Assembly: GCF_008831285.2 (NCBI RefSeq)
Contig: NC_045150.1
Coordinates: 14,875,362 to 14,939,361 of the forward strand
DNA: 64,000 nt
Direction: 5' to 3'
From: Nymphaea colorata
Taxonomy: Eukaryota; Streptophyta; Magnoliopsida; Nymphaeales; Nymphaeaceae
Each line of letters starts with the position of its first letter. Position 1 is the stretch's first letter. Under the pieces are notes generated by a model. That model did not search any database and was not told the origin of the DNA. It saw only the letters and a list, made by a program, of their open reading frames with translations. Shown piece after piece: positions 382 through 49,268 of the stretch. A program made the translations under genes and the position numbers.

Positions 382-787
382 ATGGAAAACCTTTCGCATT
401 CTGGCATGTCCTCAAGTTTTCTTCCTCACCTTATTACCGAAAAACTCAACTATGAGAATTATCTGATCTGGAAAAGGCAAATCATGCCTTTCATAAGAAG
501 TCAAGGCCTCTTTGGACATCTCGATGGTTCAACAAAGGCTCCACCAATAAAATGAGGCAGGAGAAGTTATTGCTGTTCATGAAGACAACAATCCTGAACA
601 TGCTATGTGGATGAGACGTGATCAAAGTTTGGTTGCGTATATTTTGTCCACTTTATCTCAACAAGTGTTACTTTCAGTTGCAGAAGAATTATGGGAAACC
701 CTTGGTGATACATTTTTCCAAATATCAGAAGCTCGAATTATGTACTTAAAAGAAAGAATTTCTGAGCAAAGGTTCAACGTCTATCAT
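382..787 (+). pseudogene. Element A gag, N-terminal part
   Basis: The ATG at 382 starts a copia gag N-terminus with the motif NYENYLIWKRQ, which belongs to the capsid-like domain that opens most plant copia polyproteins. The frame stops at a TGA at 553-555 after 57 codons. Gag similarity continues in shifted frames to 787, where the hAT is inserted. The left and right halves of gag are in different frames near 740-787, so at least one small indel came before or after the insertion. The piece cannot make a working capsid protein. Confidence 0.85.
780..787. repeat. hAT target-site duplication, left copy
   Basis: TCTATCAT is repeated exactly at 13728-13735. An 8-bp duplication is the hallmark of hAT insertion, and element A's gag reading resumes after the second copy. 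Confidence 0.95.
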
Positions 788-799
788 TAGGGGTGCACA
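788..799 (+). repeat. hAT left terminal inverted repeat
   Basis: TAGGGGTGCACA matches the inverted right end with one mismatch over the first 11 bases. It starts directly after the 8-bp target duplication. Confidence 0.9.
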
Positions 800-965
800 A
801 CGAGTCGAGTTACTCGAACTCGACTCGTTTAACTCGACTCGTTAGTGTAAACGAGCTGCTTCATTAGTTAAACGAGTCGAGCTCGAGTTCACGAGTCAAC
901 TCGTTTAACTAATCGAGTCGAGCTCGAGTTCACTTTGCGAACTCGTTAAAGCTCGACTCGGCTCG
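800..965 (+). repeat. hAT left subterminal repeat array
   Basis: Irregularly spaced copies of AACGAGTCGAGCTCGAG and its complement fill this stretch, many of them self-complementary around GAGCTC. In hAT elements such repeats are transposase binding sites. The same words recur at the right end (13448-13715). Confidence 0.85.
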
Positions 966-2174
966 ATTAACATACCGGTTTTAAAAAAACCGGTTCACTA
1001 GTCACGACTCACTTTGCGAACGGGAAAGGGTTTTTTTTCGTTCTAGGGTTTGTTAACTTTGTTTTCGTTCTCCCTCTCTCTCTCCGACTCCGACTCTCCC
1101 TCTCTGGCCTCTCGGCTCTCGCCTCCTTCTCCGCCTGTGCTCCCGCCCTGCTTCACTGTGCTTCTTCTCCGCCCGCCTGTGCTCTGCGCTCCTGCTGCCC
1201 TGCGAGGCTGCGTCAGTGTGCTCTCCGCCTCTCCGCTTCTCCAGTCAGTGATATCCAACTCTCAAGGAAGAGGTTCTGCCAGCAGTGTAGCAAGTTCGGT
1301 GGCTCTTTTTTCCTTCTTTGTTTGCCTTAATCTCTGCTTTTTGTTGGTTTCGTTGACGCATCAAAAGTCTCTTTTCAGATGTCTATGGTGAATTCTGACA
1401 GTAGCCTATTATTTTCATGGTTTGTGCTTGATTTAAAGAGTCTTACTTAAGATTCCAAGGGTATCATGCATAATTTAAATTGAGTATATGTGCGATATGA
1501 TGCTTGGCTTGCTCGTATTTCTGCCGCTTATTTCATGAACTATGGTCGGTCGTTTGTTAAACTGGGAATTATGGATTTATGCTGAGGTTATCGTCTGGTT
1601 TTTCTGGGTACTTCCCTCGATTCTGTAACTTTTACCGAACTGTGTTAAAGAGTTTTCTTTGTTTTTATTGCTTTATCTTGTTTGTGTTAGGTGGAAGTAC
1701 TGATGAACATCTGAAGTCTCCTTTTCCCCTATAGTTGTCGTTGTCATCATTAGCAGCAGGACCATTATGTCTATTATGGATAATGTCGTTCTCCTGTTGA
1801 CAGATTCCTTTATGGCTTCTTTTACAAATGGCACTCTAGTTTCTTATGATGAAGTTGGTTAATTTGCTGCTAGCTTGATAACTGATGCATTTTTATTGTT
1901 TAACGTGTTGTGACGGAAAGTTCTCATAATGGATCTAGGCAGCAGAAGAGAAATAGGGAAGAAAAGGAAAAACTGTGGAGAAGATAATGTCTTTCTCTGC
2001 CTTCACCTAATCCCAAAATATGCTCTGTTTTACTCTTTCTTTGGTCTTGGTTATTTGTCTGTCATGCTACTTATATGTGCTAGCAAAGGTATATCAACCA
2101 AATAGGGTACAAGGAAAATTAAGTGGACCATTTTCTAGTTGATAAGTTACATGACCAGGTTCTCTGATGCTTAG
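966..2174 (+). other. hAT interior, probable 5' leader and intron sequence
   Basis: No gene is recognised here. About 1035-1250 is very pyrimidine-rich after a CTAGGGTTTG box, which resembles a plant 5' leader, so transcription of the transposase gene may begin here. The rest is AT-rich and stop-dense, like an intron. Confidence 0.4.
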
Positions 2175-2951
2175 TCATCTGATGCTTTTGGAGAGCTCTC
2201 GGGTGTTTCTAGACTTGCTGTTTTCTTCTGTGTGATCCATCACAGCAGTTCGAAATGTATCCACGGTAGCACTTTCCTTGAACTTCAAAGCAAATGTAGA
2301 GAGGGTGTTCCTTCCTTTAACAGAACTGTTAAGGATCAGCCTATAGTTCCCTTTAGTCCTCATTATCAGTCTCGGCTTCCCAATCCCATCTGTGGCAATG
2401 TTTAATTTCAACTCGCCTTTGCCTCTTTCCTTCCAACCACCATCCAAGAATTCATACAATGAGGCATCAGCCACAAAGAATGCCTTCTCATTTTCTTCAC
2501 TAGTTTCAACTGGGACCTCCTGCATCACAAGCAGAGCATTTCCACTGGATTTGTTAACCTCTGTAGATGAAGAACCAAGACCCAGAGGAGATGAGCTTCC
2601 ATTGTTTGAGCTTCCAGTACCAAACAACGGCAAGGATGTGCTGCTGCCCTTTAAGCTAAAGGTAGAACCTGAACAAGAACCAAATCCTGATGTGCTGAAG
2701 CTGAAAGAACAATCTGTTTTAGGAAGTGTCCCAAACGAGAAAGATGGGTTAGAAAACCCACTACCTGCAAGACCAGTAAAAGCATTCCGGCTGCCAGATA
2801 GCTGCTGAAATGAATTCAGAGGAGCTGATTCAGTTCGGGTTCCCCCACCATTGGCTTCTCCTTCACTACTCATAGCTTTTTCATTTAAATATGCTGCCTC
2901 AGTTTTATTGGTCGCACCAGGCTCAGTCAAATCTTGAGCAGAATCATCCAT
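2175..2951 (-). pseudogene. NUP50-like Ran-binding-domain gene fragment captured inside the hAT
   Basis: The minus frame from the ATG at 2951 is open for about 258 codons. It has a Ser/Gly/Phe-rich linker with FG-type spacing, then a C-terminal domain with EVPVETSEENEKAFF, EFLDGGWKERGKGELK and KGNYRLILN. These are signatures of the Ran-binding domain of plant nuclear pore protein NUP50. The stretch that should join RLILN to LSTFALKF is about 20 residues too short, so a core strand of the domain is missing, and the N-terminal importin-binding region is absent. It lies on the strand opposite the transposase and inside the hAT termini, so capture by the transposon is the simplest reading. Whether it is transcribed is unknown. 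Confidence 0.8.
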
Positions 2952-3064
2952 AAATATACTTAGATTCTTGTTTACAGTCAAATCTTTATACTAGGTTCTT
3001 TCAGTTTCTGTCATGGATGCATCTAAATATATGTCTGTCACACTATTTCAGTTTATGTCTTATG

Positions 3065-3069
3065 CTTTC
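3065..3069. repeat. Copia B target-site duplication, left copy
   Basis: CTTTC is repeated exactly at 8030-8034, directly outside the two LTRs of copia B. Confidence 0.93.
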
Positions 3070-3324
3070 TGTTGAAGTATGTTAGATGGGTCTCGGGACC
3101 GGGTCCGGATCCGTATCCGATCCAACTTGTAGCCCTTGTTGGGCATTATTTAAGTCGTGTAACCCTAATCCTTATGGTGTGAATGAAAGACTAAGGAGAG
3201 AGAGAGTCTGACGGCTAGTGGGCACCGGCTCCTCCTCATTCGTGGTTTTTTCCCTCTTGTTGAGGGTTTTCCACGTTACATCGTGATCGTTGTTTCTCTT
3301 TCTCTTCTTGTTCGTGTTTCTACA
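3070..3324 (+). repeat. Copia B 5' LTR
   Basis: It starts TGTTGAAG, ends TCTACA, and matches 7775-8029 over its full 255 bp by eye. A GGACCGGGTCCGGATCC palindromic stretch lies in the upstream part. Confidence 0.95.
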
Positions 3325-3337
3325 TGGTATCAGAGCC
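3325..3337 (+). other. Copia B primer binding site
   Basis: TGGTATCAGAGCC, complementary to the initiator tRNA-Met 3' end, directly follows the 5' LTR. Confidence 0.9.
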
Positions 3338-3384
3338 GACGAGTTTGGGAAATTTTTAGGGTTTGTGAAGTTCCAACCCTAATA

Positions 3385-3545
3385 TCTCTCACCGCTACCG
3401 CCGCCGCCGCTGCCGCTGCCGCTGCCACTGCCGCCGCTGCCGCCGCCGCCGCTGCCGCCGCCGCTGCTGCCGCCGCCGCCGCCGCTGCCGCCGCTGCCGC
3501 CGCCGCCGCCGCTGCCGCCGCCGTTGCTGCAGCAGCCACCGCCGC
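3385..3545 (+). repeat. GCC/GCT trinucleotide tract in copia B leader
   Basis: The tract is almost pure GCC/GCT/GCA repeats and reads as polyalanine or polyproline depending on frame and as polyglycine on the other strand. It lies where gag would be expected. It is best read as a simple repeat rather than as coding sequence. Confidence 0.85.
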
Positions 3546-4441
3546 CGCTGTACCCAATACCACCGTCGCTGTTTCCGCCGCCGCCGGTGTCACCCTTTGC
3601 GCCATCGCCATCGCAGCCACTCTTGCGGCGTCGCTCTTGCGCCGTCGCTCTTGTGTTGTTGACCGTCGCCGTCACCGTTGTCCCTTGCGCCACTGCCTTT
3701 TGCGCCGTAGTCTTGCTTCCCGGAGAAGAAAGAAGATATGCGTGCTTAGGCGCTTCCTAAGCTTGCCTCCCCCTATTCACGTCACTTCCTAGGGGTCTTT
3801 TGCAAATCCGGTGAAGTGCATCCGCCTCTTACCTGCAATATATTGCTTGGTTGATCTTTGATTCCATCTTCTTGTTTTTGTTTGGCGCCCACCGTGCAAG
3901 AAGAGGTGGCTGGTCCGTGACTTGGTAGAGGGCGTAAAGGAGGAGAGGAGCATAACTTGAGGATTGCCTCAACGTCCGCCGGCGCTCCGGCGATCGCATC
4001 CCCCTTTCCTTACAAAAGACCGGGGTTAAATTGGTCTTACTGGTGAAGGCTTTCCTTGTCTCCAAGTTGATTTCCTATTCACTTCTATACCTTGATACTT
4101 GTTGGGTTTTGCCTCTTGGATCTTGATTCCAGCAAGGAGAACGTGTGGCGCAACCTCTACCCATGGGAGATTGCAGCCCGAGAGAGAGAAGGCACCGCTT
4201 CCGTCGAGCGACATCGACGATCGTTTCCCCCAATCGACATTCTGTTCACTCTTGGGGCTGATTGGGAATCCGGTGAAGATATTACCTCTCTCTTTATCGT
4301 TCCTTTCTAGATAGAACTTGATTTTTCTCTCGTTCTTGTGATTCTATCCAAGGATATTACTGCCCGTTGGTGCTCTCTGTTGTCATCGGTGCCTCTCTTG
4401 TTGTATCGCTGCTCGTGCCTCCTGTTGGACTATCTGTGATT
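3546..4441 (+). other. Copia B leader of unknown origin in place of gag
   Basis: Between the GCC tract and protease there is no capsid domain and no zinc knuckle. Only short frames are present on either strand. It could be a replaced gag, a captured host segment or a long leader. Confidence 0.6.
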
Positions 4442-7400
4442 ATGGCAGCTTCTTCATCTATAGACGTTATGGCGGATTGCCGTATGGGAGAGTGGATCAT
4501 TGATAGTGGCGCTACTCACCACATGACCGGCGATCCTAAGGTCTTTCATGGGTATAAGCTTTCATCAGGAAAGGATCGTGTTTCCCTTGCCGATGGTTCA
4601 TCTATCTCTGTGGCTGGAAAAGGGAGTCTCCCACTTTTGAACAAGTTCTTAGTCCACAATGCTCTACATGTTCCTCATATTCCCTTGAATCTCTTGTCGG
4701 TTAGCAAGATCACGAAGGAGTTAAATTACGAACTTATATTTTCCGCTGATCGCTGTGTTATGCAGGACTTGGTGACAGGGAAGAGGATTGGGATTGGCCT
4801 AGCTTCTGACGGGCTCTATCGTTTACCTATGCGTGCTGCTCAGGCTCTCATGACGGCAGTCAGCCAAGCCACGAAGAATAGAGAGGACTCCCTTCAGTTG
4901 CTTCTACGGTGGCATGAGCGCCTTGGACACTTGCCTTTTGGCTTTCTTAGACAGTTGTTTCCTGATATATGTTCCAGGTTAGATATGACTATGGTGTCTT
5001 GTGATGTCTGTCACCTGGCCAAACATGTTAGGGCTTCATACCCATTGTCTAGCCATCGGTCTAATGAGGTATTTGCCATGATTCATTCTGATGTGTGGGG
5101 GCCTGCAGGGATTCCTTCTTGTCATGGTTTTCAATATTTTATCACCTTTATAGATGATTATTCTCGTAACACTATTGTCTACTTGCTGAAAGACCGTAGT
5201 GAAGTTCCTACTGTCATAGAGACTTTCATTGCCTATGTGGAAACTCAATATGGAGCATCTGTTAAGACATTTCGATCTGACAATGCTCGAGAGTATATGT
5301 GCCAGTCTGTTGATAGCTTCTTTCGAAAAAAGGGAATTGTTCATGTGACTTCCTGTAGTTATACCCCTCCTCAAAATGGAGTTGCTGAACGAAAAAATCG
5401 TCAGTTATTGAATATGACTCGGGCTCTTCTTTTTCAACGTCATGTTCCAAAAAAGTATTGGGGGGATGCTGTGCTGACCAGTGCGTATCTTATAAACCGG
5501 TTGCCTAGTCGTGTGTTGAATGGGAAGACGCCTCACTCTCTGTTACCGGGGACTCGTGAACCTTTCTCTCTTCCACTCAGAGTTTTTGGTTGTGTTTGCT
5601 TTATTCACAACCATAGTCCTCACATTAAAAAGCTTGATCCAAGATCTATTAAGGGCATTTTTTTAGGGTATTCTCCCACTCAAAAAGGGTACAAGTGTCG
5701 AGACCCTTCCACTGGTCGGGCCTATGTTACCAAAGATGTCACTTTCCTTGAACATGTTTCCTATTTTGGTGAGAATCCTCTTCAGGGGGAGTACTCTATG
5801 TCACGGGAAGAGTATTCTCCGAGTCAGGAAATTCAGTTTACAGATTTTTTGGACTACAGGCGTGACTCCGTTGGTCCATCTAGTGAGGTGCATGAACAAG
5901 AGAAAAATGGAGAGTGTTCCACTGAGGCAGAAGAGAAGTGCAATCGTTTATTTGGGCAAGTTTACTCTAGGCGAAGAGTTTGTACAGATGAGATGACAGG
6001 TGGTGAGAATTCTACTCCCAATCCAATTAGTCCTTCCCTGGATGACCCAAGTCGTGCGCAGAAGCAACCTGTTGAAGAAGAGATTCAGACTGTTGCTGCT
6101 AGTGAAGAGCTTCCCATCGCCCTGCGAAAGGGTGTCAGGTCATGTACTCAACATCCTATTGGTAACTTTGTTTCATATTCTAGACTGAGCAAGGACTACA
6201 AATGCTTTGTATCTTCTCTTTCTTTGACTATGATTCCCAGGAATGTTGCTGAGGCTCAGAGTGATCCTAAGTGGACCTATGCAATGCAAGAAGAGATGGA
6301 AGCCTTGCGAAGAAACATGACATGAGAAGTTGTAAAGATTCCTGAGGCGGCTCACTTGGTTGGATCTAAGTGGGTCTACACCATCAAGTACAAACCAGAT
6401 GGGAGTGTTGAAAGATACAAAGCTCGTCTTGTGGCAAAGGGGTTTAGTCAGAAATATGAGATTGATTATTTGGAGACCTTTGCTCCTGTTGCGAAGATGA
6501 AGACGGTCAGAGTCATTATCTCTTTAGCTGTGATGAAGGAGTGGAAGATGTACCAACTTGATGTCAAGAACGCATTTCTCAATGGAGACCTTGAAGAGGA
6601 AGTATATATGTGTATGCCTCCAGGATATGAGGAACCTGGAAAATGTTGCAAGCTAAGGAAAGCTTTATATGGGCTCAAGCAATCTCCTCGAGCGTGGTTT
6701 GAACGACTCAGACTTGTCATGAGACAATGTGGATACCATCAAGGGAATGGAGATCATACACTTTTTGTGAAGAGAAATAAGCAAAAGGTTACTATTCTGT
6801 TGGTATATGTTGATGATATGATTGTCACAGGTGATGATGAAGATGAAATAATGAAGTTAAAGAAACTGTTGGCGATCGAGTTTGATCTTAAGGACCTTGG
6901 TAAGTTGAAATACTTCCTTGGCATAGAAATTGCTAGGTCTGGGACTAGCCTTGTGCTAAATCAACGGAAGTACACTCTAGATTTGTTAAAGGAAACTGGG
7001 AAACTAGGGTGTAGACCAGCTTCTACTCCTCTAGATGCTGGCCATAAGCTAAGTCTTAGAAACGGGGAGCCACTCTGTGAAGAGGCAAAAAGAAGATATC
7101 AATGTCTTGTAGGGAAGTTAATTTATCTTACTCTCACTAGACCTGATATTACCTTTGCTGTGAATGTGATGAGCCAGTTCATGCATGCTCCCACGGATGC
7201 CCACTTGAAGGCTATTGACAGGATCTTGTGCTACTTGAAGAGGAATCCTGGCAAAGGTCTCTTATATGTCAAGCAAGACACTCTTGGGATTGAAGGTTAT
7301 TCATATGCAGACTGGGCAGGCTGTATTGACACTAGGAGGTCCACCTCCGGCTATTGTATTTATTTGGGAGGGAATCTCATAGTGTGGAGAAGGAAAAGGC

Positions 7401-7780
7401 AAGATGTTTGTTCGCGTTCCAGTGCTGAAGCAGAATACAGAGCTGTTGCTATGGGAGTTTCCGAGCTTTTGTGGCTGAAAGTATTGTTGACTGATATTGG
7501 TATAAAGGTTGAAGAACCAATGAAGATGTATTGCGATAACAAGTCTGCAATTAACTTGGCCAACAACCCTGTGCTTCATGACAGAACAAAGCATGTTGAG
7601 ATTGACCGGCATTTCATTCGAGAGAGAATTGATGCTAAAGAACTTGTACTTCCTTACATGAGATCTGAAGACCAAACGGCTGATGTTCTGACGAAGGCTT
7701 TATCTTCGACCTCATTTGAGAGAAATGTATCCAAGTTGGGCATGTTTGATATGTATGCGCAACTTGAGGGGGAGTGTTGA
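4442..7780 (+). pseudogene. Copia B pol: protease, integrase, reverse transcriptase, RNase H
   Basis: The first in-frame ATG upstream of protease is at 4442. The protease motif WIIDSGATHHMTG follows at about 4492. Next come an HHCC integrase finger, an integrase core with the DVWGP, SDNAREY and ERKNRQ blocks, the reverse-transcriptase YVDDM box near 6806 and RNase H (SSAEAEYRAV). A TGA at 6323-6325 interrupts just before the reverse-transcriptase domain, where relatives have tryptophan. From 6356 the frame is open again to a stop that overlaps the first bases of the 3' LTR. Gag is absent. The protein family matches element C closely (shared KYKPDG, LETFA and FDMYA blocks). Confidence 0.92.
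7766..7774 (+). other. Copia B polypurine tract
   Basis: GAGGGGGAG directly precedes the 3' LTR and would prime plus-strand synthesis. Confidence 0.85.
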
Positions 7781-8029
7781 AGTATGTTAGATGGGTCTCG
7801 GGACCGGGTCCGGATCCGTATCCGATCCAACTTGTAGCCCTTGTTGGGCATTATTTAAGTCGTGTAACCCTAATCCTTATGGTGTGAATGAAAGACTAAG
7901 GAGAGAGAGAGTCTGACGGCTAGTGGGCACCGGCTCCTCCTCATTCGTGGTTTTTTCCCTCTTGTTGAGGGTTTTCCACGTTACATCGTGATCGTTGTTT
8001 CTCTTTCTCTTCTTGTTCGTGTTTCTACA
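7775..8029 (+). repeat. Copia B 3' LTR
   Basis: It matches the 5' LTR at 3070-3324 over 255 bp with no difference seen by eye. The CTTTC duplication follows at 8030-8034. Confidence 0.95.
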
Positions 8030-8034
8030 CTTTC
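8030..8034. repeat. Copia B target-site duplication, right copy
   Basis: CTTTC, identical to 3065-3069. The hAT sequence resumes after it. Confidence 0.93.
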
Positions 8035-8273
8035 AAATAACATACCATTTGCTTCCATGTTGCATGATTGTGATCATGTGAGCAGAATAGAATGAGATTC
8101 TAGTCTGCCCACCTCAAGTATCTCATTATGATGATTGAACAATCTTCTTGTTTGATTAGACGTAACTGGTAATATGCTTGTTGATGAGTAGTTTCTTTTC
8201 ATGTTCAAATAGGAGAATAGCTTGAGCAGGAGGGAAAATTACTAGTTTGAAGAATGACAAATTTAGGAAGTAG

Positions 8274-10452
8274 AGCATTAATAAGGGCAAACAAGTATGT
8301 GATTCAAGACCGAGTTCAGATGATGTCCCAATCGGAGTACATTCCTCTAATGAAACTCCTATAGATTCGCAAGACCCTGACTATGAAGGGGTTTCAATAG
8401 ATGCTCATGAAGTACGTATAAGTGGTGCAAAAAGGTCAAGGTCAAAGACTTCTACAATATGGAATGATTTTGACGAGGTTGTTATAAATGGTATCAAAAA
8501 AGGAAAATGTAAATACTGCAGTGCACTATTTTCGATAAGTGGAGGAGGCTCTACATCATCAATGAGAAGACACAAATGTTTGACACGTTTTGCTAACAAA
8601 AAGCAAACGACTTTAAGTTTTAAATCTGAGACTACTTCAGATGTCACGAAGAAGCTTATGGAAATTGGTTCCAACATTGATGCTCAAGCAATAAGAGAGT
8701 TAATTGCAAAACTAGTGGCAACCGGAAAACATGCTTTTTCCATAGTGGATAATTGTTGGTTTAGGTTCATTCTTAGGCTTGGTTTTCCTAATTGGGTGCC
8801 AGTTTCAAGAACGACAGTTAAGAGAGATGTCATGAAATTATATGAAGATGAAAAGAAGAAATTGCTTCTTGTCTTCAAGGGTGTTGAGAAGATTGCTTTG
8901 ACTACAGATATGTGGACATCAAACCAACAACTTGGATATTTGGCATTAACAGCACATTTCATTGATAAAGATTGGAAGATGCAACAACGTATCATCAACT
9001 TTACCGAAGTTGAGCCACCTCATACTGGGTTAGTTTTAGCAAATGTAATTGCTAAGCATCTTGCAGAGTGGGAGATTAAAAAGAAAATAATATCTATTAC
9101 AGTTGACAACGCTTCATCAAATGATGTTCTTGTCAGAAAATTAAAAGAAAACATGGAAAAGAGCGGCATCAACTTGTATCATGGAGGTAAATTTTTTCAT
9201 GTGCGATGTTGTGCACATATTTTGAATATAATGGTACAAGATGGGTTGAGTGCCATTAAGGATGAAATCATTAGCATTAGAGAGGCAGTTAAATATATCA
9301 AAGTTTCACCTTCAAGACTCCATGGTTTTGCAGCTGCAGCTAGAGAGTTGGATCTTTCAACGTCAAAGAAGTTAGTGTTAGATGTACCAACTCGATGGAA
9401 TTCAACATATTTTATGTTGGAAAGAGCTCTTTTATATAAAGATGCTTTTGCAAGATATAGCATGGAAGACCCAGGTTTGGTATGGTTGCTTGGACCCGAG
9501 GATTGGGAAAAAATTGCAGTGATATGTGATTTTCTTCAAGTTTTTTATTCAGTGTCGACCCTATTTTCTGGGTCATCTTATGCAACAACAAACTTATATT
9601 TTCTTGAAATTTGGAGAGTTCAAGCAATATTGCAGGAAAAAGTTGAAAGTGAAGGTGGGTTTATGAAGGCAATGGCAGTGAAAATGAAGGAGAAATTTGA
9701 TAAATATTGGAAATCCTGTAACTTGATAATGATTATTGCATCCATATTAGATCCACGCGTGAAACTCACATTATCAGAATTTGTCTTTTCAAGAATTTAC
9801 CAATCAAGAGAAGAAAGGGAAGAACAAATGCAAATGGTAAAACAATCTTTACAAGATGTATATCAAAGTTACATTCAAAGAAATGAAGTGGATGTCAATA
9901 TTTCTACTGCTTCAACTAATTCCTCTAGTATTCAAAGTCGAGAGAGTCGAGACACCCCACAATGTGGAATAAATCTATTTTTTAACTTGTTAGGTAAAGC
10001 TGAGAATGTTGCTTTTCAGGTCACCAAATCTGAGATAGACACATATTTGGAGGACGGATTGATTAAGCATGATAATAATGGTGATGCTTTTTCTTTCAAT
10101 ATTTTGCAATGGTGGAAGGATAAGGAATCTAAGTATCGAATTCTTTCACAAATGGCACGTGATTTGTTGTCAATTCCAATAACTTCTGTTGCTTCAGAAA
10201 GAGCTTTCAGTACAAGAGGTCGAATTGTTAATGATAGTCGTAGTTCATTGGTGCAAAAAACAGTTGAAGCTTTGGTTTGTTTGGGTAATTGGGTAAAGAA
10301 TGATGGTGATCCAATGCATGAAGTTGTAACACAAGTAAGTATATTTTGAATAAATTGTATTCATTAAATATTTTGTGAATCATTTGTTAATTGACTATAT
10401 GTATTTCTTTCAGGTTGAGGATGAATCAAGTGAATATATATCATTAGAATGA
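8274..10452 (+). CDS. hAT transposase with BED zinc finger, two visible exons
   Basis: The frame is open from 8274, after a TAG, but has no early ATG, so an upstream exon probably supplies the start. A BED zinc finger follows at about 8460-8575 (tryptophan at 8460, CKYC, then the RRHKC pair). The RNase-H-like core has TTDMWTS (Asp at 8907) and TVDNASSND (Asp at 9104), then the RWNSTY block at about 9390. A DUF4413-like part (ASILDPR) precedes the C-terminal dimerisation domain with SERAFSTRGRIV at about 10195. An intron at 10335-10413 (GTAAGT...CAG, phase 0) leads to a 12-codon last exon ending at 10452. No stop or frameshift was found, so the enzyme may be functional. It would cut and paste this element and deletion derivatives of it. 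Confidence 0.9.
10335..10413 (+). other. Last intron of the hAT transposase gene
   Basis: It begins GTAAGT and ends TTTCTTTCAG. Both flanking exons are in phase 0. Reading through it would add five codons and a stop instead. Confidence 0.7.
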
Positions 10453-12599
10453 TTCAAGTTGCCTCTTGGTAATGCCTTTTTTTTTGTTATTTTGTTTTCT
10501 TCTTTTTCTTGATCTAATTAATGTGATTCTAGTGTCTGTTTCAGTTGCCTCTTGTAGTTTTTCTTGATCTTTTTCTGTGTACTGGTTTTATTCATTTGCT
10601 TATTGTTCTAGTGTCTGTTTCAGATGGAAAACTTCTTGCTTCAAAAGGGTATGTTAATCGAGCCTTAAACGAGCTCCAAAAGGATGGGCCACCTGAATTC
10701 CAGATAATTTTCTGAACACAGATTGTGTACTGAATTGCCTTCATGGCTGTGGATCTTGTATTCCACTTTCAAAGATCTGATAGTTTTTTCTTGCTAGAAT
10801 ATTATCTTGAGAACAATCACATTTAGCTTAACATTTTTTTGTCTATGAAATTTGCTTTGTTTTCTTTGAACCCTTCACAATTTGCATTCAGTTTTGCTCC
10901 TTTTTTTTCTTATTGCTTAGTGAATGGTGGAAGTACATAGCATTTGAACCCATCTTGTTTTATGCAAGTAGTCACATATGTAAATGTGGTAACACGGTAA
11001 CAGGTTGCCAAAATTCTTTACCCGTCCAACTGGTTTGAATTTAACCTTCCCTATTACTGTTTTCTGAACTTCATTCTTTTGGTCAGGCTGCAATGATCAG
11101 CCATGCAAAATACAAATGAGGTATGAAAGCAAGGTCGATAAATGTTGGATTGTCTGCATGTCTTCGATAAACCCCATATTGGTTTATATTTCTGATAAGA
11201 ATGTGATTCATGTAGGTGAGCAACTGACACCATATTGATTAAGCCTTGCCTCCATATTTCATTTTACTGGTCAAGTTATGATATAAGAAAGGAACTTAAT
11301 TACTTAGTTTTGCAACTTTATAGTTTATTTTCATGTGCATAATCTGTTGCCCATTGGTAATGACCGAGAATACAACAAAAATTCTATGTGTTAATAATAT
11401 CCTAAATTCTAGTATTATCTTGATAATGTTTTGATATTCTTGCAAGTTGTTTGAAAAAGGATTCATCTTTTCGGTAATTGTTAAACTTTCTATTGATTTT
11501 CTATTCTCTTTGAGAAAGCCTTGTTGAGAATTTGTTGAGATTATTTTGCCTTTTTTTTCCTTTCTTCTCCAATGGATTTTTAGTGTCTTGTTTAATTCTT
11601 TCATAGTTCTTAGTTTATTGTCTCTCCTTCTTACAATGTTATTCTCACTCCTTGTGGTCTTCCTGGCTCTCAATTCTTTCGTCTTAGAACATACCATCTT
11701 GTACTATAATGCATTGTAATTGTTTCTTTACCAATTCTACTTCTCTTTCTACTCGTTTTCATGTGTTTTTTAATCTCTTTCAGCTTGCAAAATGATTGTT
11801 CTTCATCGTCGCTTAGCTTTGGGTTTCAATTATTGCATCTAAAGTTATTTGACTTCTTAGGCGGCAGGAAATTTTATGAGCCTCGGTTAGTTTTTTAATT
11901 ACTTAAATGCCTTGTATTAATGATGCTTTGAAAAGGTAGAAATATCTATTTTGGCCTGCATGCATGGTTTAGGTGCAGTCAACAGGGTAATCCATGGTCA
12001 AATTTGTTCCTTTTTCCATGATCTCTCTCTCTCTCTCTCTCGCATCTGGACGAGTATGTTAAATGTGTGTCAGTTGCTCCCCTTTTCTTAGTCCTTGAAT
12101 GACTTTTGTTTGCCATTCTTTATAATTGCACTTATCCTTTTTATTCATACTATCCAATTCTGCGCGCTTATTGATTCCTATTTGCTATTTAGGTGATCCG
12201 AGGTACAGGAGTACATCACCATATTTTTTTATTTTTATCTTTTATTTTATCCCGTAAACGAGAAATGAATTGCTCTTGTGATGTGATCCTAGCATGACAG
12301 ACTTAGTGGCCTCCTACCATTACTTTTGAATTTTGTTTTATTTTGTTCACTTTTTGCATGACTTTCGCTTTCTTGCCTTTTTTTTCGCGTGATTTCTGGG
12401 TAAGGGTTACAGTCTTTGGTCCCACGATGCTTTGTTGATAGAAGGCTTGCTACGTCCCAAGTTGATGGCTTGGTATACAGTTTGAATTGGAATTTTTATA
12501 ACTTGCCATACAGACTTATAGTTTTACAATTATCCTTGTACTTTTATGTTTGTGGTTTTACAGTTTTACAATTATTGTACTTACAGTTTTACAGTTTAT
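10453..12599 (+). other. hAT interior downstream of transposase, no gene seen
   Basis: The stretch is AT-rich and stop-dense on both strands, with a CT microsatellite near 12024-12042. It probably holds the 3' UTR and spacer. An open minus frame at 11296-11697 has no recognisable motif and was not called. Confidence 0.4.
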
Positions 12600-12755
12600 G
12601 CAACCTGTGAAAACACAGAAAAACCAAACCTATGTACAATTATCCTTGTACTTACAGTTTTACAGTTTTACAATTATCCTTGTACTTTTATGTTTTACAA
12701 TTTGTAAGCATTTTGACTGACATAGGTTTGGTTTTTCTGTGTTTTCACAGGTTGC
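12600..12755. repeat. 36-bp perfect inverted repeat with 84-bp loop
   Basis: The arm at 12600-12635 (GCAACCTGTG...CCTATGT) is the exact reverse complement of 12720-12755. The loop carries direct repeats of ACAATTATCCTTGTACTT. The right arm contains TTTTCACAG, which looks like a splice acceptor, so the arm may have been copied from an exon edge. Confidence 0.9.
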
Positions 12756-12987
12756 ATTTTAGAAGTCTCCGCTGGTTGTGTTATTCTGAATCTCTGATGG
12801 AGACATATAGATGTGGATGCTAATTTGGTGTGCAGTTCTTGTGGAGATGGGCTGTTTGGAAACTTGGTTTAACCATTGAAATGGACTTGGTTCCAGGAGA
12901 TCAGTGGCCAAAGACGGACTGGGTTGGCTTTGTCAAGCGTTTGTGACTTCTGTTTAGGCACTGATTGTTTATGCTATTACTCTTAAA

Positions 12988-13308
12988 ATGAACACAACAA
13001 TGGCTACTATGGGCACCATTCATTCTGTTTTGGCGAAGATAGGGCTTGTAAGCGCGTCTGATCATGCCTCTGTTGTTTCAATCATACCTCCTGGATTATG
13101 TGAGATTATCAAACTAAAGAGCCTCAGATTTTTTGATGTGTCTGACTGTGCAACCATCAGTAGCTTCCCTGATGAATTTGGTGACCTGACAGGTTTGAGA
13201 AAGATCAACATGAGGTGGTGTTTGCAGTCATTGCTTGTATGTATAATGTATCACGAACTTGAAATTTTCCACTATGCGTCTATGCCCCTCAGATTGTTCT
13301 TGCTGTGA
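12988..13308 (+). pseudogene. ADR1-like NLR leucine-rich-repeat fragment captured inside the hAT
   Basis: The frame carries LKSLRFFDVSDCATISSFP, DEFGDLTGLRKINMRWC and related spacing. This matches the last leucine-rich repeats of the helper-type NLR immune receptors (ADR1/RPW8 class), where the same block precedes a conserved C-terminal tail. The NB-ARC and coiled-coil domains are absent and similarity ends at about 13225, where unrelated repeat sequence begins. The ATG at 12988 is probably accidental. The fragment lies between the transposase and the right end of the hAT, on the transposase strand. It is a gene fragment, not a working receptor. A generic LRR origin is the main alternative. 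Confidence 0.6.
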
Positions 13309-13349
13309 TCTCGAACTTGATACAGTCATTGCTTGTATGTATAATGTAT
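13225..13349 (+). repeat. 27-bp direct repeat flanking the end of the NLR fragment
   Basis: The 27 bases at 13225-13251 (beginning CAGTCATTGCTTG) recur at 13323-13349. The first copy begins where NLR similarity stops, which suggests a small duplication at the capture junction. Confidence 0.8.
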
Positions 13350-13447
13350 TCCAAAAATTGTTGACAATCTGAACATAATTAATGCCAGGTGGTTTTATAT
13401 ATCTTTTTGATGAAACTGTTAGCAGTAATACAATTGGTTTGATTCAG

Positions 13448-13715
13448 TAAACGAGTTAAACGAGTCGAGCTCGACTATTGGTTTAATTCTTAAACGTTAA
13501 ACGAGTCAAGCTCAACTAAACGAGTTAAACGAGTCGAGCTCGACTATTGGTTTAATAATTAAACGTTAAACGAGTTAAACGAGCTGAGCTCGACTATGTA
13601 TAGTTGAGTCGAGCTCGAGCTCGTGTTAGGAACTCGACTCGAGTTCGAGTTCGAGTTCGAGCATTTCGAGCCGAGTCGAGTTCGAGCTGGGCGAGCTCGA
13701 GCTCGACTCGGCTCG
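13448..13715 (-). repeat. hAT right subterminal repeat array
   Basis: The stretch holds dense copies of AAACGAGTCGAGCTCGAC and variants. Within it, a unit of roughly 60 bp containing CTATTGGTTTAAT is repeated. It mirrors the left array at 800-965. Confidence 0.85.
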
Positions 13716-13727
13716 TGTGCAGCCCTA
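13716..13727 (-). repeat. hAT right terminal inverted repeat
   Basis: Read inward it is TAGGGCTGCACA, matching the left end with one mismatch. TCTATCAT follows at 13728-13735. Confidence 0.9.
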
Positions 13728-13735
13728 TCTATCAT
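13728..13735. repeat. hAT target-site duplication, right copy
   Basis: TCTATCAT, identical to 780-787. Element A's gag continues from here. Confidence 0.95.
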
Positions 13736-20663: not shown

Positions 20664-20829
20664 TGTTAAGATGTGTTTATATTCAGTTTTAGGTTTAAGA
20701 GGGTACTTTTGTAATAACTTTTTCCTTTAGATGTTTCTCTTGTAACTTCTCTCTCTCCTCTAGTCTATATAAAGAGGAGTTAGGGCAGATTTCGAGGTTA
20801 ATCAAAGATTATTCTTTCTAATCTTATCA
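20664..20829 (+). repeat. Copia D 5' LTR (166 bp)
   Basis: It starts TGTTAAGATG, ends TTATCA and equals 31109-31274 by eye. A TATATAAA box lies at 20766-20773. The run of five Ts near 20720 distinguishes D from D2, which has four in both of its LTRs. Confidence 0.95.
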
Positions 20830-20841
20830 TGGTATCAGAGC
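20830..20841 (+). other. Copia D primer binding site
   Basis: TGGTATCAGAGC, complementary to initiator tRNA-Met, follows the LTR with no gap. Confidence 0.92.
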
Positions 20842-21563
20842 AGCAGCCGTCTCCTCCTCCTTGGCGCGCCGATTGAGCGGCGCCGCCCGCCGCCTGACCG
20901 CGCCCATCGCTGCGCTTCCTCCACCCGCTCGTGTCCACCCATCTCCGCCCGTCGCTGACCTCTCCACCCGACGCCTCCGCCAGTCGCTGTCCTGACCTCT
21001 CCGCCCGACGCCTCCGCCCGTCGCTGACCTCTCCACCCGACGCCTCCGCCCGTCGCTGACCTCTCCGCCCGACGCCTCCGCCCGTTGCTGTCTTCTCCGC
21101 CCGACGCCTCCGTCAGCTGTTGCAGTCATCTTCGCCGCTGCCCGCCGTGGCTGTCACCTCCGCCCGCCGCCACCGTCCGTCGCTGTTGCTTCTCCGCTGC
21201 CGCTGAATCGCCGCTGCACGCTGCATCGCCTCTGCTGTCTCCACCACTCTCCTCTGCTCCGCCGCTGCCCTGCACGCTGATTTTCTTCTCAGCGTCTTCG
21301 CTGCATCGCCTCTGCTGTCTCCACCACTCTCCTCTGCTCCGCCGTTGCTCTTCACGCTGATTTTCCTCTCAGCGTCTTCGCTGTCGCCTCTGGTAATCTG
21401 TCTTCGTTCAGTTCTGTTGTTGCCTCTTCCAGCCGATCAGACTTATGGATTGCTGCCTGTGTTAACTGCTTCATGATCAGCATGTTGTCTTTCGATATGT
21501 GATTGTCTTCTTTTTGCCTGCACTTCCTATTCCGTGGCTCGGTTTCCTCCATTGTGTTGAGCG
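20842..21563 (+). repeat. Copia D leader with GC-rich tandem repeats
   Basis: About 20935-21110 is built from units of roughly 26 bp containing GACGCCTCCGCCCGTCGCTG. A longer unit of about 80 bp is doubled at about 21221-21380. D2's leader has a different number and spacing of units. No protein is encoded on the plus strand before the ATG at 21564. Confidence 0.85.
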
Positions 21564-24500
21564 ATGTCTGAAATTAGCAGCGGCGCTAATACCTCTTCCT
21601 TTGTGTCGTCGGGAGAGATGAAGAGTTCCCCATTTTCCAGCTTTATCACCAAAATGGATGGGGGTAATTACGAGATGTGGGCCATGCAAGTAAAAAGAAC
21701 CTTGATCGCTCATGAGAAGGAACATCTTATATTGGAGCTCGAGCCCGTACAGAAGGTAGGAAAATATACTACTTGGTTTAAAGATAATTCGTTGGTTATG
21801 GTATGGATTGTTGGTACTCTTACTCAAGACATTGCCAATGAAGTCCTGCATAAGGAAAGTGCAAAGGATATGTGGGATTCCCTTGCAGCCACCTATTCAC
21901 AAGCAAGGAATGAAACAAGAATTATGCAGCTTCATCATGATATTCATCAGATGCGCCAAGATGGTCGCCCTCTACATACTTATTATTCTAGTCTCAAGTC
22001 CATGTTTGAGAGACTAAACAGCTACTTTCCTGCATGTAAGTGTGAACAACAGAAGGCATACAGAGATATGCTTATGGTCGGAGTATTTCTGTCTGGATTA
22101 GACTCTGTTTATGAATCAGCAAAGAATCAGATGCTCACTAGTCCATCGATTCCTCCTATTGATGAAGCTTATAGTAGGCTAAGCAGAATTCCAATCCCTT
22201 CATCGACTGTTCTTGATACCACTTCTGCTATGCTTGCTACTCGTGGCAGAGGTGGGTCCCTCTTTGCCAGAGGACGAGGATACCGTGGCCGTGGCAATAC
22301 CCCTTCGCGCCCAGTATGTCAGTTTTGTCATCGCATTGGTCACACTGTGGATAAGTGTTGGCAGAAACATGGTCGTCCAGCTGTTGCCAATCAGACTGTT
22401 TTTACTGATTCTCCAGAGCAGCCTAAGACTCAGCATCCTGTTTCCTCCAGTGAGTTACGTGCAGATGATATTATCTCTCAGTTGAGACACTTGATTGGAG
22501 ATAGACCTCAACAAGCTCCTGATCCGACCACCTCTACTATCACTACTGCTGCCAGTGCATCTTCATCTGGTATGTATTCTGACACTACAGATTGGCTCAT
22601 TGATTCGGGTGCATCGACACATCTCTGTGGAGACAAGGCACAGTTTACTTCTTATGTCCCTACTCCACCTGGTCGCTCGGTTATTCTAGCAGATGGCAAA
22701 TATTCTCCCGTTGTTGGACTTGGAGAGGTCCAACTTACTTCATCATTACCATTGCAACATGTTCTTCATGCACCAGAATTCACACATAGCCTACTATCTA
22801 TCAGTCAGATTACCAGAGATTTAAACTGTCGTGCGATATTTGACTCCTCTTCTCTTGTGTTTCAGGATATACTGACGGGCAGGGTGATTGGCAGTGGCCG
22901 TGAACAGGGAGGTCTTTACAGGCTAGTGCATCCCTTTCCCTTTGCTGGGTCTACCTCTGCAGGGTCGTCCTCATCCTCGGCTTATACTTGGCATTTACGT
23001 TTTGGACATCTACCGTTTCAGAAACTGCTGCATGTTCTTCCTCAGCTGTCTCCTAAGTCTTCTTTTCAATGCGAGTCTTGTCAGTTGGGCAAACACCATC
23101 GGTCATCCTTTCCTCCGCGGCCCAGTCGAAGTAGCCATTCTGTGTTTGAGTTACTTCATTTTGATGTTTGGGGTCCGAGTCGTACACCTGCTCTTCATGG
23201 TCATCGATATTATCTTGTTGCTGTCGATGACTATAGTCGTGTTAGTTGGGTTTTTCTTATGAAGCATAAATCTGAAGTGGGTCATGTAATCAAAAATTTT
23301 ATCAATGAAATTCTGACTCAGTTTGATACTTGTGTCAAAATTGTGCGCTCTGACAATGCTCTTGAGTTCTGTGCTTCCTCTTTGGAACAATTTTTCAGGG
23401 ATAAGGGTATCATCCACCAAACTTCTTGTGCCTATACCTCCCAACAAAATGGGGTTGCTGAACGGAAACACCGTCATATTCTTGATGTTGCCAGAACCAT
23501 TATCATACATAGCCATGTTCCCCATTCTTACTGGGGCGATGCTGTTCTCACAACCTGCTATCTTATTAATCGTATGCCGTCATCTGTGTTGGGAGACCTT
23601 ATTCCTATCTCTGTCCTCTTTCCTGACAGAGACTTGTTTTCTGTTCCACCTCGTGTTTTTGGATGTGTTGCCTTTGTTCAGTTGCTTGGTCCTGGGCGAG
23701 ATAAGTTGTCTCCTCGGGCCATCAAAACGATCTTTGTTGGTTATTCCCGCACTCAAAAGGGATATCGATGTTATGATCCTTCTACTCGTCGGTATTATGT
23801 GAGTGCTGATGTTACATTTTTTGAATCAACCTCTTTCTTCTCCCCAAATGGAACTCAATTAAGGGCGCCTGAATTAAATGATGAAGTCCAATTTCCTCTA
23901 CCTCTCATGAGTTGTCCAAACCCAGTTGATCCACGTTTTGGGGCTGTCTACCAACGTCGTACTAAGCCTGCTGCGCCTGTTCAATGTGCACCTGTGCCTT
24001 CACCCAGCACGCCCAAGGTAATTCCTGACACAAACTCAACTGACAATGTTTTATGTAATGATGACATAGGAGTATGTCACGAGCATGTTCCTGCTCCTAA
24101 TGAACTTGATATGCCCATTGCTCAAAGGAAAGGCAAACGCAGTTGCACTTTGCATCCTATCTCTGGTCATTTATCCATGGATAGACTCACCCCTATGTAC
24201 CGACAGTTTGTCAAGGGGCTGTCGGCTATTGCTCTTCCACAGAATCCCATGGATGCTCTCTCTGATCCCAAATGGGCAGCAGCTATGCAAGAGGAGATGG
24301 ATGCTCTTCAGTCTAGAGGCACCTGGACACTTGTTACTCCTTCAGCTGATGCAGCCATTGTTGGTTGCAGATGGGTCTTTACTATCAAATACAGAGCAGA
24401 TGGCAGTCTTGACAGATATAAGGCTCGTCTGGTTGCAAAAGGCTATACCCAAACTTATGGGGTTGATTATTATGATACCTTCTCTCCTGTGGCACGACAT

Positions 24501-25625
24501 GCTTCTTTACGGATTCTCCTTGCTGTGGCTGTCAGCAAGAATTGGTCCCTCTCACAGCTTGATGTCAAAAATGCCTTTCTCTATGGTGACTTACATGAAG
24601 AAGTGTATATGCAGCAACCACCAGGGTTTGTTGCTGAGGGGGAGTGTCAGAAAGTGTGCAGATTGAGAAAGGCGATTTATGGTCTGAAACAGAGTCCTCG
24701 AGCTTGGTTTCAGAAATTGTCAGAGAATATTGAGAATGAGGGCTTCAGACGTTCTTCGGCCGACCATTCCCTCTTTGTCAAGAAGACTTCTACAGGTACG
24801 GTGATAGTTCTTGTCTATGTTGATGATATCATTGTTACAGGGGATGATGATAAGGGGATTTCCAACATCAAGGATGTCCTTGGACAACACTTTGTCACCA
24901 AGGACCTTGGTGAACTACGTTATTTCCTTGGTATTGAGTTTGCCAGAAATCAAAAGGGCCTTATCATGTGCCAGAGGAAATACGTTACTGATGTTTTGCA
25001 AGAGACAGGGATGCTGGGGTGTCGGCCTGCATCCATGCCTATGGATATCAATACCCGCTTGTATGATGATGATACTGAAGATGTTGATGCGAGACAGTAT
25101 AGAGGGATTGTTGGGAAGCTCCTATACATCACTGTTACTCGACCTGACATTGCCTATGCTGTTAGCAGAGTGAGTCAATTTATGGATAAGCCCAAGAAAG
25201 TTCATTGGGATGCTGCTATGATGATTCTTAGGTATCTAAAGAATTCACCAGGAACGGGACTCTTCTTTCAGAATGGTACCTCACTCACTATATCTGTGTA
25301 TGTTGATGCCGACTATGCAGGATGCCCCTCGGACAGAAAATCCACTACTGGATTTTGTGTGTTTATTGGATCCAACTTGGTTACATGGAAGAGTAAGAAG
25401 CAAACTGTGGTTGCCAGATCAAGTGCAGAATCTGAGTATAGAGCTATGGCTCAGGGTACTACTGAAGTTATGTGGGTTAGATCCCTTATGTTGGATCTTA
25501 CTGTCGAAGTGCCTCTTCCTATGCAACTGTTATGTGATAACAAAGCTGCACTGTTTATTGCTAATAATCCGGCTTTTCATGAAAGAACCAAGCATGTTGA
25601 AGTAGATTGTCACTATACTAGAGAC
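21564..25625 (+). pseudogene. Copia D gag-pol, main part (1354 codons)
   Basis: The ATG at 21564 matches the start of D2's frame. Domains in order are a gag capsid-like region (NYEMWAMQVKR), a CCHC knuckle at residues 251-265, protease WLIDSGASTHLCG near 342 and an HHCC finger near 476. The integrase core follows at about 533-640 (DVWGPS, SDNALEF, ERKHRH), then reverse transcriptase with YVDDIIVTG near 1084 and RNase H from about 1245. The insertion of E after codon 1354 replaces the last 47 codons with three codons and a stop. The tail lies at 30958-31101. It is broken only by E. Confidence 0.95.
25621..25625. repeat. Copia E target-site duplication, left copy
   Basis: GAGAC is repeated at 30953-30957, directly outside both E LTRs. 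Confidence 0.93.
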
Positions 25626-26032
25626 TGTGAAAAGTGACTATAACAGTCACAAAGAATACATATAATACCAAAAAGGCACTAAGGCCAAGTGAAGAAGAGT
25701 AATACTCATTCAATAAACAATATAAAGGCTGTAAAACACAGCTTATGCTTTACAAAGACTGTTACAAGGATATTTATAAGAGAGAATAAGAAGAGATGAG
25801 CTAAACTAGCCGTTGGGCTAGTTCCAACAGCTCTTAATAGAGCTGTTGGAACTGCCAACGGCTAGTTTGGCAGAAATAATAAAAAAATAAAAAAATAAAA
25901 AATAAAAAATAAAGAGAAAAGAAAGAAATAAACTAAATCCTAAACTAATTCCTAACTAATCCTAAACTAGCTCTTAACTAAGATAATACCTAATTAAGAG
26001 ATAACAACAATAAGAAATCATATTTCTTAACA
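25626..26032 (-). repeat. Copia E 3' LTR (407 bp)
   Basis: On the plus strand it starts TGTGAAAAGT and ends TTCTTAACA. It contains a hairpin-forming pair (ACTAGCCGTTGG ... CCAACGGCTAGT, about 25806-25867) around GTTCCAACAGCTC, and an A-rich tract. Confidence 0.95.
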
Positions 26033-30545: not shown

Positions 30546-30952
30546 TGTGAAAAGTGACTATAACAGTCACAAAGAATACATATAATACCAAAAAGGCACT
30601 AAGGCCAAGTGAAGAAGAGTAATACTCATTCAATAAACAATATAAAGGCTGTAAAACACAGCTTATGCTTTACAAAGACTGTTACAAGGATATTTATAAG
30701 AGAGAATAAGAAGAGATGAGCTAAACTAGCCGTTGGGCTAGTTCCAACAGCTCTTAATAGAGCTGTTGGAACTGCCAACGGCTAGTTTGGCAGAAATAAT
30801 AAAAAAATAAAAAAATAAAAAATAAAAAATAAAGAGAAAAGAAAGAAATAAACTAAATCCTAAACTAATTCCTAACTAATCCTAAACTAGCTCTTAACTA
30901 AGATAATACCTAATTAAGAGATAACAACAATAAGAAATCATATTTCTTAACA
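30546..30952 (-). repeat. Copia E 5' LTR (407 bp)
   Basis: Line-by-line comparison with 25626-26032 shows no difference. GAGAC follows at 30953-30957. Confidence 0.95.
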
Positions 30953-44379: not shown

Positions 44380-47300
44380 TCAAGTTAGAGCGTATATGTC
44401 AAATAGGCTCAACTTGGAACAGCAGCTTTGGAATGGTCCCTTTGCAAGAGCCTTAGTAAAGATATCAGCCGTTTGCCCTGTAGTTGAAATGTGTGAGGTA
44501 CTTACAAACCCCTTTTGAATCATGTCTCTAGTATAGTGACAATCTACTTCAACATGCTTGGTTCTTTCATGAAAAGCCGGATTATTAGCAATAAACAGTG
44601 CAGCTTTGTTATCACATAACAGTTGCATAGGAAGAGGCACTTCGACAGTAAGATCCAACATCAGGGATCTAACCCACATAACTTCAGCAGTACCCTGAGC
44701 CATAGCTCTATACTCAGATTCTGCACTTGATCTGGCAACCACAGTTTGCTTCTTACTCTTCCATGTAACCAAGTTGGATCCAATAAACACACAAAATCCA
44801 GTAGTGGATTTTCTGTCTGAGGGGCATCCTGCATAGTCGGCATCAACATACACAGATATAGTGAGTGAGGTACCATTCTGAAAGAAGAGTCCCGTTCCTG
44901 GTGAATTCTTTAGATACCTAAGAATCATCATAGCAGCATCCCAATGAACTTTCTTGGGCTTATCCATAAATTGACTCACTCTGCTAACAGCATAGGCAAT
45001 GTCAGGTCGAGTAACAGTGATGTATAGGAGCTTCCCAACAATCCCTCTATACTGTCTCGCATCAACATCTTCAGTATCATCATCATACAAGCGGGTATTG
45101 ATATCCATAGGCGTGGATGCAGGCCGACACCCCAGCATCCCTGTCTCTTGCAAAACATCAGTAACGTATTTCCTCTGGCACATGATAAGGCCCTTTTGAT
45201 TTCTGGCAAACTCAATACCAAGGAAATAACGTAGTTCACCAAGGTCCTTGGTGACAAAGTGTTGTCCAAGGACATCCTTGATGTTGGAAATCCCCTGATC
45301 ATCATCCCCTGTAACAATGATATCATCAACATAAACAAGAACTATCACCGTACCTGTAGAAGTCTTCTTGACAAAGAGGGAATGGTCGGCCGAAGAACGT
45401 CTGAAGCCCTCATTCTCAATATTCTCTGACAATTTCTGAAACCAAGCTCGAGGACTCTGTTTCAGACCATAAATCGCCTTTCGCAATCTGCACACTTTCT
45501 GACACTCCCCCTCAGCAACAAACCCTGGTGGTTGCTGCATATACACTTCTTCATGTAAGTCACCATAGAGAAAGACATTTTTGACATCAAGCTGTGAGAG
45601 GGACCAAGTCTTGCTGACAGCCACAGCAAGGAGAATCCGTAAGGAAGCATGTCGTGCCACAGGAGAGAAGGTATCATAATAATCAACCCCATAAGTTTGG
45701 GTATAGCCTTTTGCAACCAGACGAGCCTTATATCTGTCAATACTGCCATCTGCTCGGTATTTGATAGTAAAGACCCATCTGCAACCAACAATGGCTGCAT
45801 CAGCTGAAGGAGTAACAAGTGTCCAGGTGCCTCTAGACTGAAGAGCATCCATCTCTTCTTGCATAGCTGCTGCCCATTTGGGATCAGAGAGAGCATCCAT
45901 GGAATTCTGTGGAAGAGCAATAGCCGACAGCCCCTTGACAAACTGTCGGTACATAGGGGTGAGTCTATCCATGGATAAATGACCAGAGATAGGATGCAAA
46001 GTGCAACTGCGTTTGCCTTTCCTTTGAGCAATGGGCACATCAAGTTCATTAGGAGCAGGAACATGCTCGTGACATACTCCTATGTCATCATTACATAAAA
46101 CATTGTCAGTTGAGTTTGTGTCAGGAATTACCTTGGGCGTGCTGGGTGAAGGCACAGGTGCACATTGAACAGGCGCAGCAGGCTTAGTACGACGTTGGTA
46201 GACAGCCCCAAAACGTGGATCAACTGGGTTTGGACAACTCATGAGAGGTAGAGGAAATTGGACTTCATCATTTAATTCAGGCGCCCTTAATTGAGTTCCA
46301 TTTGGGGAGAAGAAAGAGGTTGATTCAAAAAATGTAACATCAGCACTCACATAATACCGACGAGTAGAAGGATCATAACATCGATATCCCTTTTGAGTGC
46401 GGGAATAACCAACAAAGATCGTTTTGATGGCCCGAGGAGACAACTTATCTCGCCCAGGACCAAGCAACTGAACAAAGGCAACACATCCAAAAACACGAGG
46501 TGGAACAGAAAACAAGTCTCTGTCAGGAAAGAGGACAGAGATAGGAATAAGGTCTCCCAACACAGATGACGGCATACGATTAATAAGATAGCATGCTGTG
46601 AGAACAGCATCGCCCCAGTAAGAATGGGGAACATGGCTATGTATGATAATGGTTCTGGCAACATCAAGAATATGACGGTGTTTCCGTTCAGCAACCCCAT
46701 TTTGTTGGGAGGTATAGGCACAAGAAGTTTGGTGGATGATACCCTTATCCCTGAAAAATTGTTCCAAAGAGGAAGCACAGAACTCAAGAGCATTGTCAGA
46801 GCGCACAATTTTGACACAAGTATCAAACTGAGTCAGAATTTCATTGATAAAATTTTTGATTACATGACCCACTTCAGATTTATGCTTCATAAGAAAAACC
46901 CAACTAACACGACTATAGTCATCGACAGCAACAAGATAATATCGATGACCTTGAAGAGCAGGTGTACGACTCGGACCCCAAACATCAAAATGAAGTAACT
47001 CAAACACAGAATGGCTACTTCGACTGGGCCGCGGAGGAAAGGATGACCGATGGTGTTTGCCCAACTGACAAGACTCGCATTGAAAAGAAGACTTAGGAGA
47101 CAGCTGAGGAAGAACATGCAGCAGTTTCTGAAACGGTAGATGTCCAAAACGTAAATGCCAAGTATAGGCCGAGGATGAGGACGACCCTGCAGAGGTAGAC
47201 CCAGCAAAGGGAAAGGGATGCACTAGCCTGTAAAGACCTCCCTGTTCACGGCCACTGCCAATCACCCTGCCCGTCAGTATATCCTGAAACACAAGAGAAG

Positions 47301-48585: not shown

Positions 48586-49256
48586 CGCTCAACACAATGG
48601 AGGAAATCGAGCCACGGAATAGGAAGTGTAGGCAAAAAGAAGACAATCACATATCGAAAGACAACATGCTGATCATGAAGCAGTTAACACGGGCAGCAAT
48701 CCATAAGTCTGATCGGCTGGAAGAGGCAACAACAGAACTGAACGAAGACAGATTACCAGAGGCGACAGCGAAGACGCTGAGAGGAAAATCAGCGTGCAGA
48801 GCAGCGGCGGAGTAGAGGAGGCGATGCAGCGAAGACGCTGAGAAGAAAATCAGCGTGCAGGGCAGCGGCGGAGCAGAGGAGAGTGGTGGAGACAGCAGAG
48901 GCGATGCAGCGTGCAGCGGCGATTCAGCGGCAGCGGAGAAGCAACAGTGACAGACGGCGGCGGCGGGCGGAGGTGACAGCCACGGCGGGCAGCGGCGAAG
49001 ATGACTGCAACAGCTGACGGAGGCGTCGGGCGGAGAAGACAGCAACGGGCGGAGGCGTCGGGCGGAGAGGTCAGCGACGGGCGGAGGCGTCGGGTGGAGA
49101 GGTCAGGACAGCGACTGGCAGAGGCGTCGGGTGGAGAGGTCAGCGACGGGCGGAGATGGGTGGACACGAGCGGGTGGAGGAAGCGCAGCGATGGGCGCGG
49201 TCAGGCGGCGGGCGGCGCCGCTCAATCGGCGCACCAAGGAGGAGGAGACGGCTGCT
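48586..49256 (-). repeat. Copia D2 leader with GC-rich tandem repeats
   Basis: The leader carries the same unit families as element D (GACGCCTCCGCCC and a longer CAGCGTCTTC unit) in different number. It encodes nothing recognised on the element strand. Confidence 0.85.
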
Positions 49257-49268
49257 GCTCTGATACCA
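49257..49268 (-). other. Copia D2 primer binding site
   Basis: GCTCTGATACCA on the plus strand, i.e. TGGTATCAGAGC on the element strand, next to the 5' LTR. Confidence 0.92.

Follow-up and report, generated by a model that had tools for sequence, protein, structure and literature searches.

In the window analysed here, a stretch of 64,000 nucleotides of Nymphaea colorata DNA, a broken piece of a nuclear-pore-protein-like gene, and probably a scrap of a second gene, were found nested between the ends of a hAT transposon (Table 1). The reading that I prefer, and consider reasonably probable, is that a complete plant hAT element gained these pieces by transduplication. The element begins with TAGGGGTGCAC... 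at position 788 and ends with ...GTGTGCAGCCCTA at position 13727. Its terminal inverted repeats (TIRs) are short, and the left one (TAGGGGTGCACAACGAG) and the right one (TAGGGCTGCACACGAG, on the other strand) are alike, not identical. The target-site duplication (TSD), TCTATCAT, is exact at both ends and has the 8-bp length of the hAT superfamily. Since the identical 8 bp lie outside each end, the hAT moved in as a unit. The landing site is the gag region of a copia element, in a window rich in Ty1-copia elements. The frame on the right side gave a Retrotran_gag_2 match (E 1.5e-06) followed by copia domains, and when the flanks are joined, the stretch KKEFLSKGSTSIMDYLGRIKAVADQLAASG reads across the empty site. 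The left 160 bp at the target site has a 94.4% match elsewhere in the window. The gag of the target copia is not one open frame: its gag-like part further to the left is interrupted by stops and read in a different phase.

Table 1. Features of the hAT element and its inserts (positions within the window)
Feature	Position	Strand	Remarks
Left TSD copy of the hAT, 8 bp	780..787		TCTATCAT; from sequence
Whole hAT element	788..13727	+	12940 bp; 7975 bp once the inserted copia and one of its TSD copies are subtracted
Left terminal and subterminal region	788..1010	+	AACGAG / CTCGAC / GAGCTCGA motifs; inner border approximate
RanBD/FG (NUP50-like) gene fragment	2178..2951 (to 2175 with stop)	-	258 codons; Ran_BP1 incomplete
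Ty1-copia inserted in the hAT	3070..8029	+	255-bp LTRs 100% identical; TSD CTTTC at 3065-3069 and 8030-8034
hAT transposase, main coding exon	8280..10334	+	Frame open to 10346
Probable last intron of the transposase gene	10335..10413	+	GTAAGT...TTTCAG; the exon after it reads VEDESSEYISLE, then a stop
17-nt exact inverted copy of left subterminal sequence	10648..10664	-	Inner remnant of the right subterminal region
Foreign DNA within the right subterminal repeats	10674..13447		2,774 bp; TAAACGAG on both sides
Open frame whose LRR stretch is most similar to RPW8-type NLR chains	12958..13305	+	116 codons
Right subterminal repeats and TIR	13448..13727	+	TAAACGAG at 13448-13455
Right TSD copy of the hAT, 8 bp	13728..13735		TCTATCAT; from sequence

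In Pfam, the transposase frame matched hAT-like_RNase-H (PF14372, E 1.5e-29) and, at its C-terminus, Dimer_Tnp_hAT (PF05699, E 5.4e-28). The presence of both the RNase-H fold and the C-terminal dimerisation region places the element in the hAT superfamily. The BED zinc finger (PF02892) scored 15.8 bits, below the cut-off of 20.6. For the first exon there are 25 open model combinations, too many to single one out, so the element is only putatively autonomous. No second transposase copy was found in the window (blastn at E up to 1e-5; tblastn at E up to 1), and the NCBIfam search gave no match at E up to 1. Among viral contigs, a collection which holds no plants, 11 pattern stretches were found and none was confirmed as a relative. 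Downstream of the main exon, positions 10533-10715 show a frame with TTTCAG and then an exon-like stretch, DGKLLASKGYVNRALNELQKDGPPEFQ, which is partly hAT subterminal sequence. For the 60-residue frame at 10533-10712, Pfam gave nothing at E up to 5 and the PDB a single poor match (E 0.8).

A sequence-only reading of this DNA had described a 258-codon frame with a Ran-binding domain within the hAT ends and antisense to the transposase. Both statements were borne out. The minus-strand ORF at 2175-2951 is enclosed by the TIRs and the TSD and matched Ran_BP1 in Pfam with an E value of 4.4e-12 and a score of 46.8 bits (cut-off 23.2). It is antisense because the transposase frame (8280-10346) lies on the plus strand. 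The ORF has 258 codons and a stop when counted from the ATG, or 268 codons if a TTG further upstream (2981) is taken as the start, and its coding stretch has no intron. A chance open frame was rejected as its source: none of 300 first-order Markov simulations of the region 1391-3069 reached at least 258 codons, and the longest simulated frame was 193 codons, against a stop-to-stop length of 271 codons for the ORF.

From which host gene was this fragment derived? The two best solved matches to the ORF are Ran-specific GTPase-activating protein 2 (E 2.3e-10), which I take to be Yrb2, and RanBP3 (E 7.6e-08). ABR034Wp, presumably a yeast Nup2 and thus a counterpart of NUP50, is also among the solved matches (E 6.4e-06), while the list of solved matches at E up to 1, 24 in all, contains no chain named NUP50. 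The C-terminal RanBD of NUP50 is represented through the Ran_BP1 match, as an incomplete domain. As for the FG repeats that stand ahead of the RanBD in NUP50, direct reading of the translation showed one FSFG and scattered FG dipeptides. The proposed NUP50 origin therefore stands as far as a Ran-binding, host-type gene fragment is concerned, but not for NUP50 specifically, given that Yrb2 and RanBP3 match best. The NUP50 label is tentative, as these matches do not separate NUP50 from other RanBD/FG proteins.

The fragment seems to be damaged. Of the 122 positions of the Ran_BP1 profile, the ORF up to residue 208 (RLILN) covers 2-63; with the frame taken whole, the match ends at position 75. 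The last 38 residues gave a weak PH-like match below the cut-off (VID27_PH, E 0.045) and, in the PDB, nothing at E up to 10. Since the Ran_BP1 coverage is broken and the tail is only weakly PH-like, the domain core probably lacks about 20 residues. The earlier figure of about 20 agrees with the profile coverage, although the exact number stays an estimate. At the 3′ end of the ORF, the adjacent frame continues as ...LETPESSPKASDD up to a stop. Plant NUP50 tails have endings of this type, and thus the C-terminus appears to be frameshifted near the end. No N-terminal NUP50 or importin-alpha-binding domain was found, as the whole ORF gave only Ran_BP1 at E up to 10. The N-terminal loss suggested before would look the same as a region that was never captured. 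Because the domain core is incomplete and the tail seemingly frameshifted, the NUP50-like piece looks like a decaying passenger and not a working gene. An AlphaFold2 model of the ORF alone had a mean pLDDT of 33.5 and was set aside. No second match to the ORF was found in the window (blastn at E up to 1e-5; tblastn at E up to 1), nor any NCBIfam match at E up to 1. Pattern searches for relatives gave 24 stretches in viral contigs and 97 in genome contigs, none confirmed; these collections hold viruses and prokaryotes, so that the absence of relatives there means little.

The copia element between the RanBD fragment and the transposase is young and entered the hAT later. It was rejected as the carrier of the fragment, which lies outside its LTRs, and the copia has its own TSD. 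Behind its 5′ LTR, at 3392-3550, there is a GC-rich stretch of the CCG/GCT type with long alanine- or glycine-rich frames. Could the NUP50-like piece nevertheless have joined an already complete hAT on its own, as a retrocopy or aboard a different mobile element? The region is a proven landing site, as a distance of 118 bp separates the copia from the ATG end of the RanBD ORF, and the intronless coding stretch is what a retrocopy would show. However, the missing intron is no proof of a retrocopy and says little either way, because apple MdNup50a/b have only two exons (PMC7566457). The sequence at 2952-3069, upstream of the ORF, is AT-rich (GC 0.297) and intron-like in composition. The surroundings of the piece (1040-3069 joined to 8035-8330) were searched for marks of such an arrival. 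No TIR pair with at least 7 of 10 matching positions and an exact TSD of 8-11 bp was found there, a search that covers neither elements with shorter TSDs nor TSD-less ones such as Helitrons. There was also no flanking direct repeat of at least 10 nt (50 shuffles gave a mean of 0.64), nor were runs of 8 or more A or T reported for 1041-3069. I consider a separate arrival unlikely.

Beyond the transposase, a second piece of cargo splits the right subterminal repeats. The 17-nt inverted match at 10648-10664 exceeds the longest match (13 nt) in 300 single-base shuffles of 10453-13440. After it, TAAACGAG stands at 10666-10673 and again at 13448-13455, where the remaining right end follows. TAAACGAG is also an ordinary subterminal repeat unit; it occurs 11 times on the plus strand in the first 14.5 kb, once (12255) within the insert. 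The LRR frame at 12958-13305 had 49 distinct solved sequences in its PDB list at E up to 10. An RPW8-domain protein leads this list, with E 2.8e-10 over the whole sequence and 3.8e-06 for the best single stretch. At5g66900, At5g04720 and ADR1 are among the top six, a NADase chain is fifth, and receptor-kinase LRRs are close behind (E 6.8e-06). Since Pfam gave no LRR match here at E up to 5, RNL serves as a provisional label. Judged by the PDB matches, the insert probably holds a scrap of a disease-resistance-type gene. The insert also holds a 38-bp perfect inverted repeat (12598-12635 / 12720-12757).

The arrangement of the right end raises another possibility, namely that two neighbouring hAT ends moved the intervening host DNA as a macro-element. 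This would account for the LRR-bearing insert: the inner right-end remnant (10648-10673) stands 2.8 kb inside the remaining right-end repeats, the left and right TIRs differ slightly, and Pack-TYPE elements have been proposed to gain DNA by such a route (PMC8903248). On the other hand, no second TIR was found by the inner remnant (when up to 3 mismatches are allowed, the window contains no other match to the 23-nt left end), and the whole hAT has a single TSD pair. A macro-element would also leave the NUP50-like piece, beyond the transposase, unexplained. I regard this origin as improbable. That the antisense piece has a function, either as a source of small RNAs against the parental nucleoporin gene or as a new protein, is scarcely credible: the frame is open for 258 codons and antisense to the transposase gene, but its Ran-binding core is incomplete, its tail frame is changed, and there was no Rfam match at gathering score within the hAT.

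If transduplication is the correct reading, host genomic DNA was probably copied into the hAT during gap repair after excision, with joining at short repeats such as TAAACGAG, and carried along from then on. The NUP50-like piece lies antisense in the segment that leads from the 5′ end to the coding exon of the transposase, probably the first intron, and the RNL-like LRR piece lies in the right subterminal repeats. The NUP50-like piece may be transcribed as antisense baggage. A bolder version is that of a still-mobile, transposase-encoding hAT which has gathered at least two unrelated host gene fragments (the nucleoporin-like piece, antisense in the hAT's intron, and an RNL-type immune-receptor piece in the right end), spreads them and possibly makes antisense RNA against the nucleoporin gene; I consider it very unlikely.

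Gene capture by hAT elements, which the sequence-only reading took to be less known, is documented better than it implied (PMC2528002, PMC3260210, PMC8903248). Grapevine Hatvine-6 elements, which are hATs with transduplicated host sequences, have a common transposase and TIRs; the remainder differs between them and in many cases corresponds to exons and introns of the host (PMC2528002). The present element resembles them in keeping the hAT transposase and TIRs beside host-type sequence; their length is given as variable (PMC2528002). Hatvine-6 has a 13-bp TIR and a 9-bp TSD, in contrast to the 8-bp TSD found here, a comparison made with the published description (PMC2528002). For a CACTA family, the same paper points out that antisense transcripts could arise from sequence captured in the opposite orientation (PMC2528002). 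Maize Ds2 and Ds-l4 elements carry gene fragments, which is called rare for hAT (PMC3260210). They share with the present element the hAT superfamily, the 8-bp TSD and the host gene fragments, some with nested LTR retrotransposons, but are non-autonomous, whereas the transposase frame is open here (PMC3260210). Pack-TYPE hAT elements are more abundant in maize than in rice (PMC8903248). They too have host coding fragments between TIRs and an 8-bp TSD (PMC8903248), and sequence matches place host-type coding DNA (the RanBD fragment and the LRR stretch) within the TIRs of the present element. However, Pack-TYPE elements are defined there as non-autonomous (PMC8903248), whereas this hAT has an intact-looking transposase frame, open and with both domains.

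The element is thus a further example of a hAT that holds host gene pieces, one on each side of the transposase, and yet keeps its transposase frame. The literature search found no paper linking hAT capture with Ran-binding or nucleoporin cargo; such cargo may therefore be unreported in the literature searched, although gene pick-up by plant hATs as such is already documented. Beyond the sequence-only reading, the analysis added the copia with identical LTRs, the change of frame at the C-terminus and the RNL-like LRR insert; this second cargo is the main addition. If sibling elements exist, their subterminal junctions could help to separate gap-repair copying from macro-element formation.

Elsewhere in the window, one copia element is present in two copies of opposite orientation (20664-25625 and 44524-49433) which are 98.2% identical. 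The 20664-25625 copy appears to host a further copia, whose 407-bp repeats (25626-26032 / 30546-30952) are identical. At 52757-55534, there are two adjoining open frames of 379 and 544 codons in the same phase, with a stop at 53894-53896 between them. They look like one pentatricopeptide-repeat gene, a label given by reading the translations.
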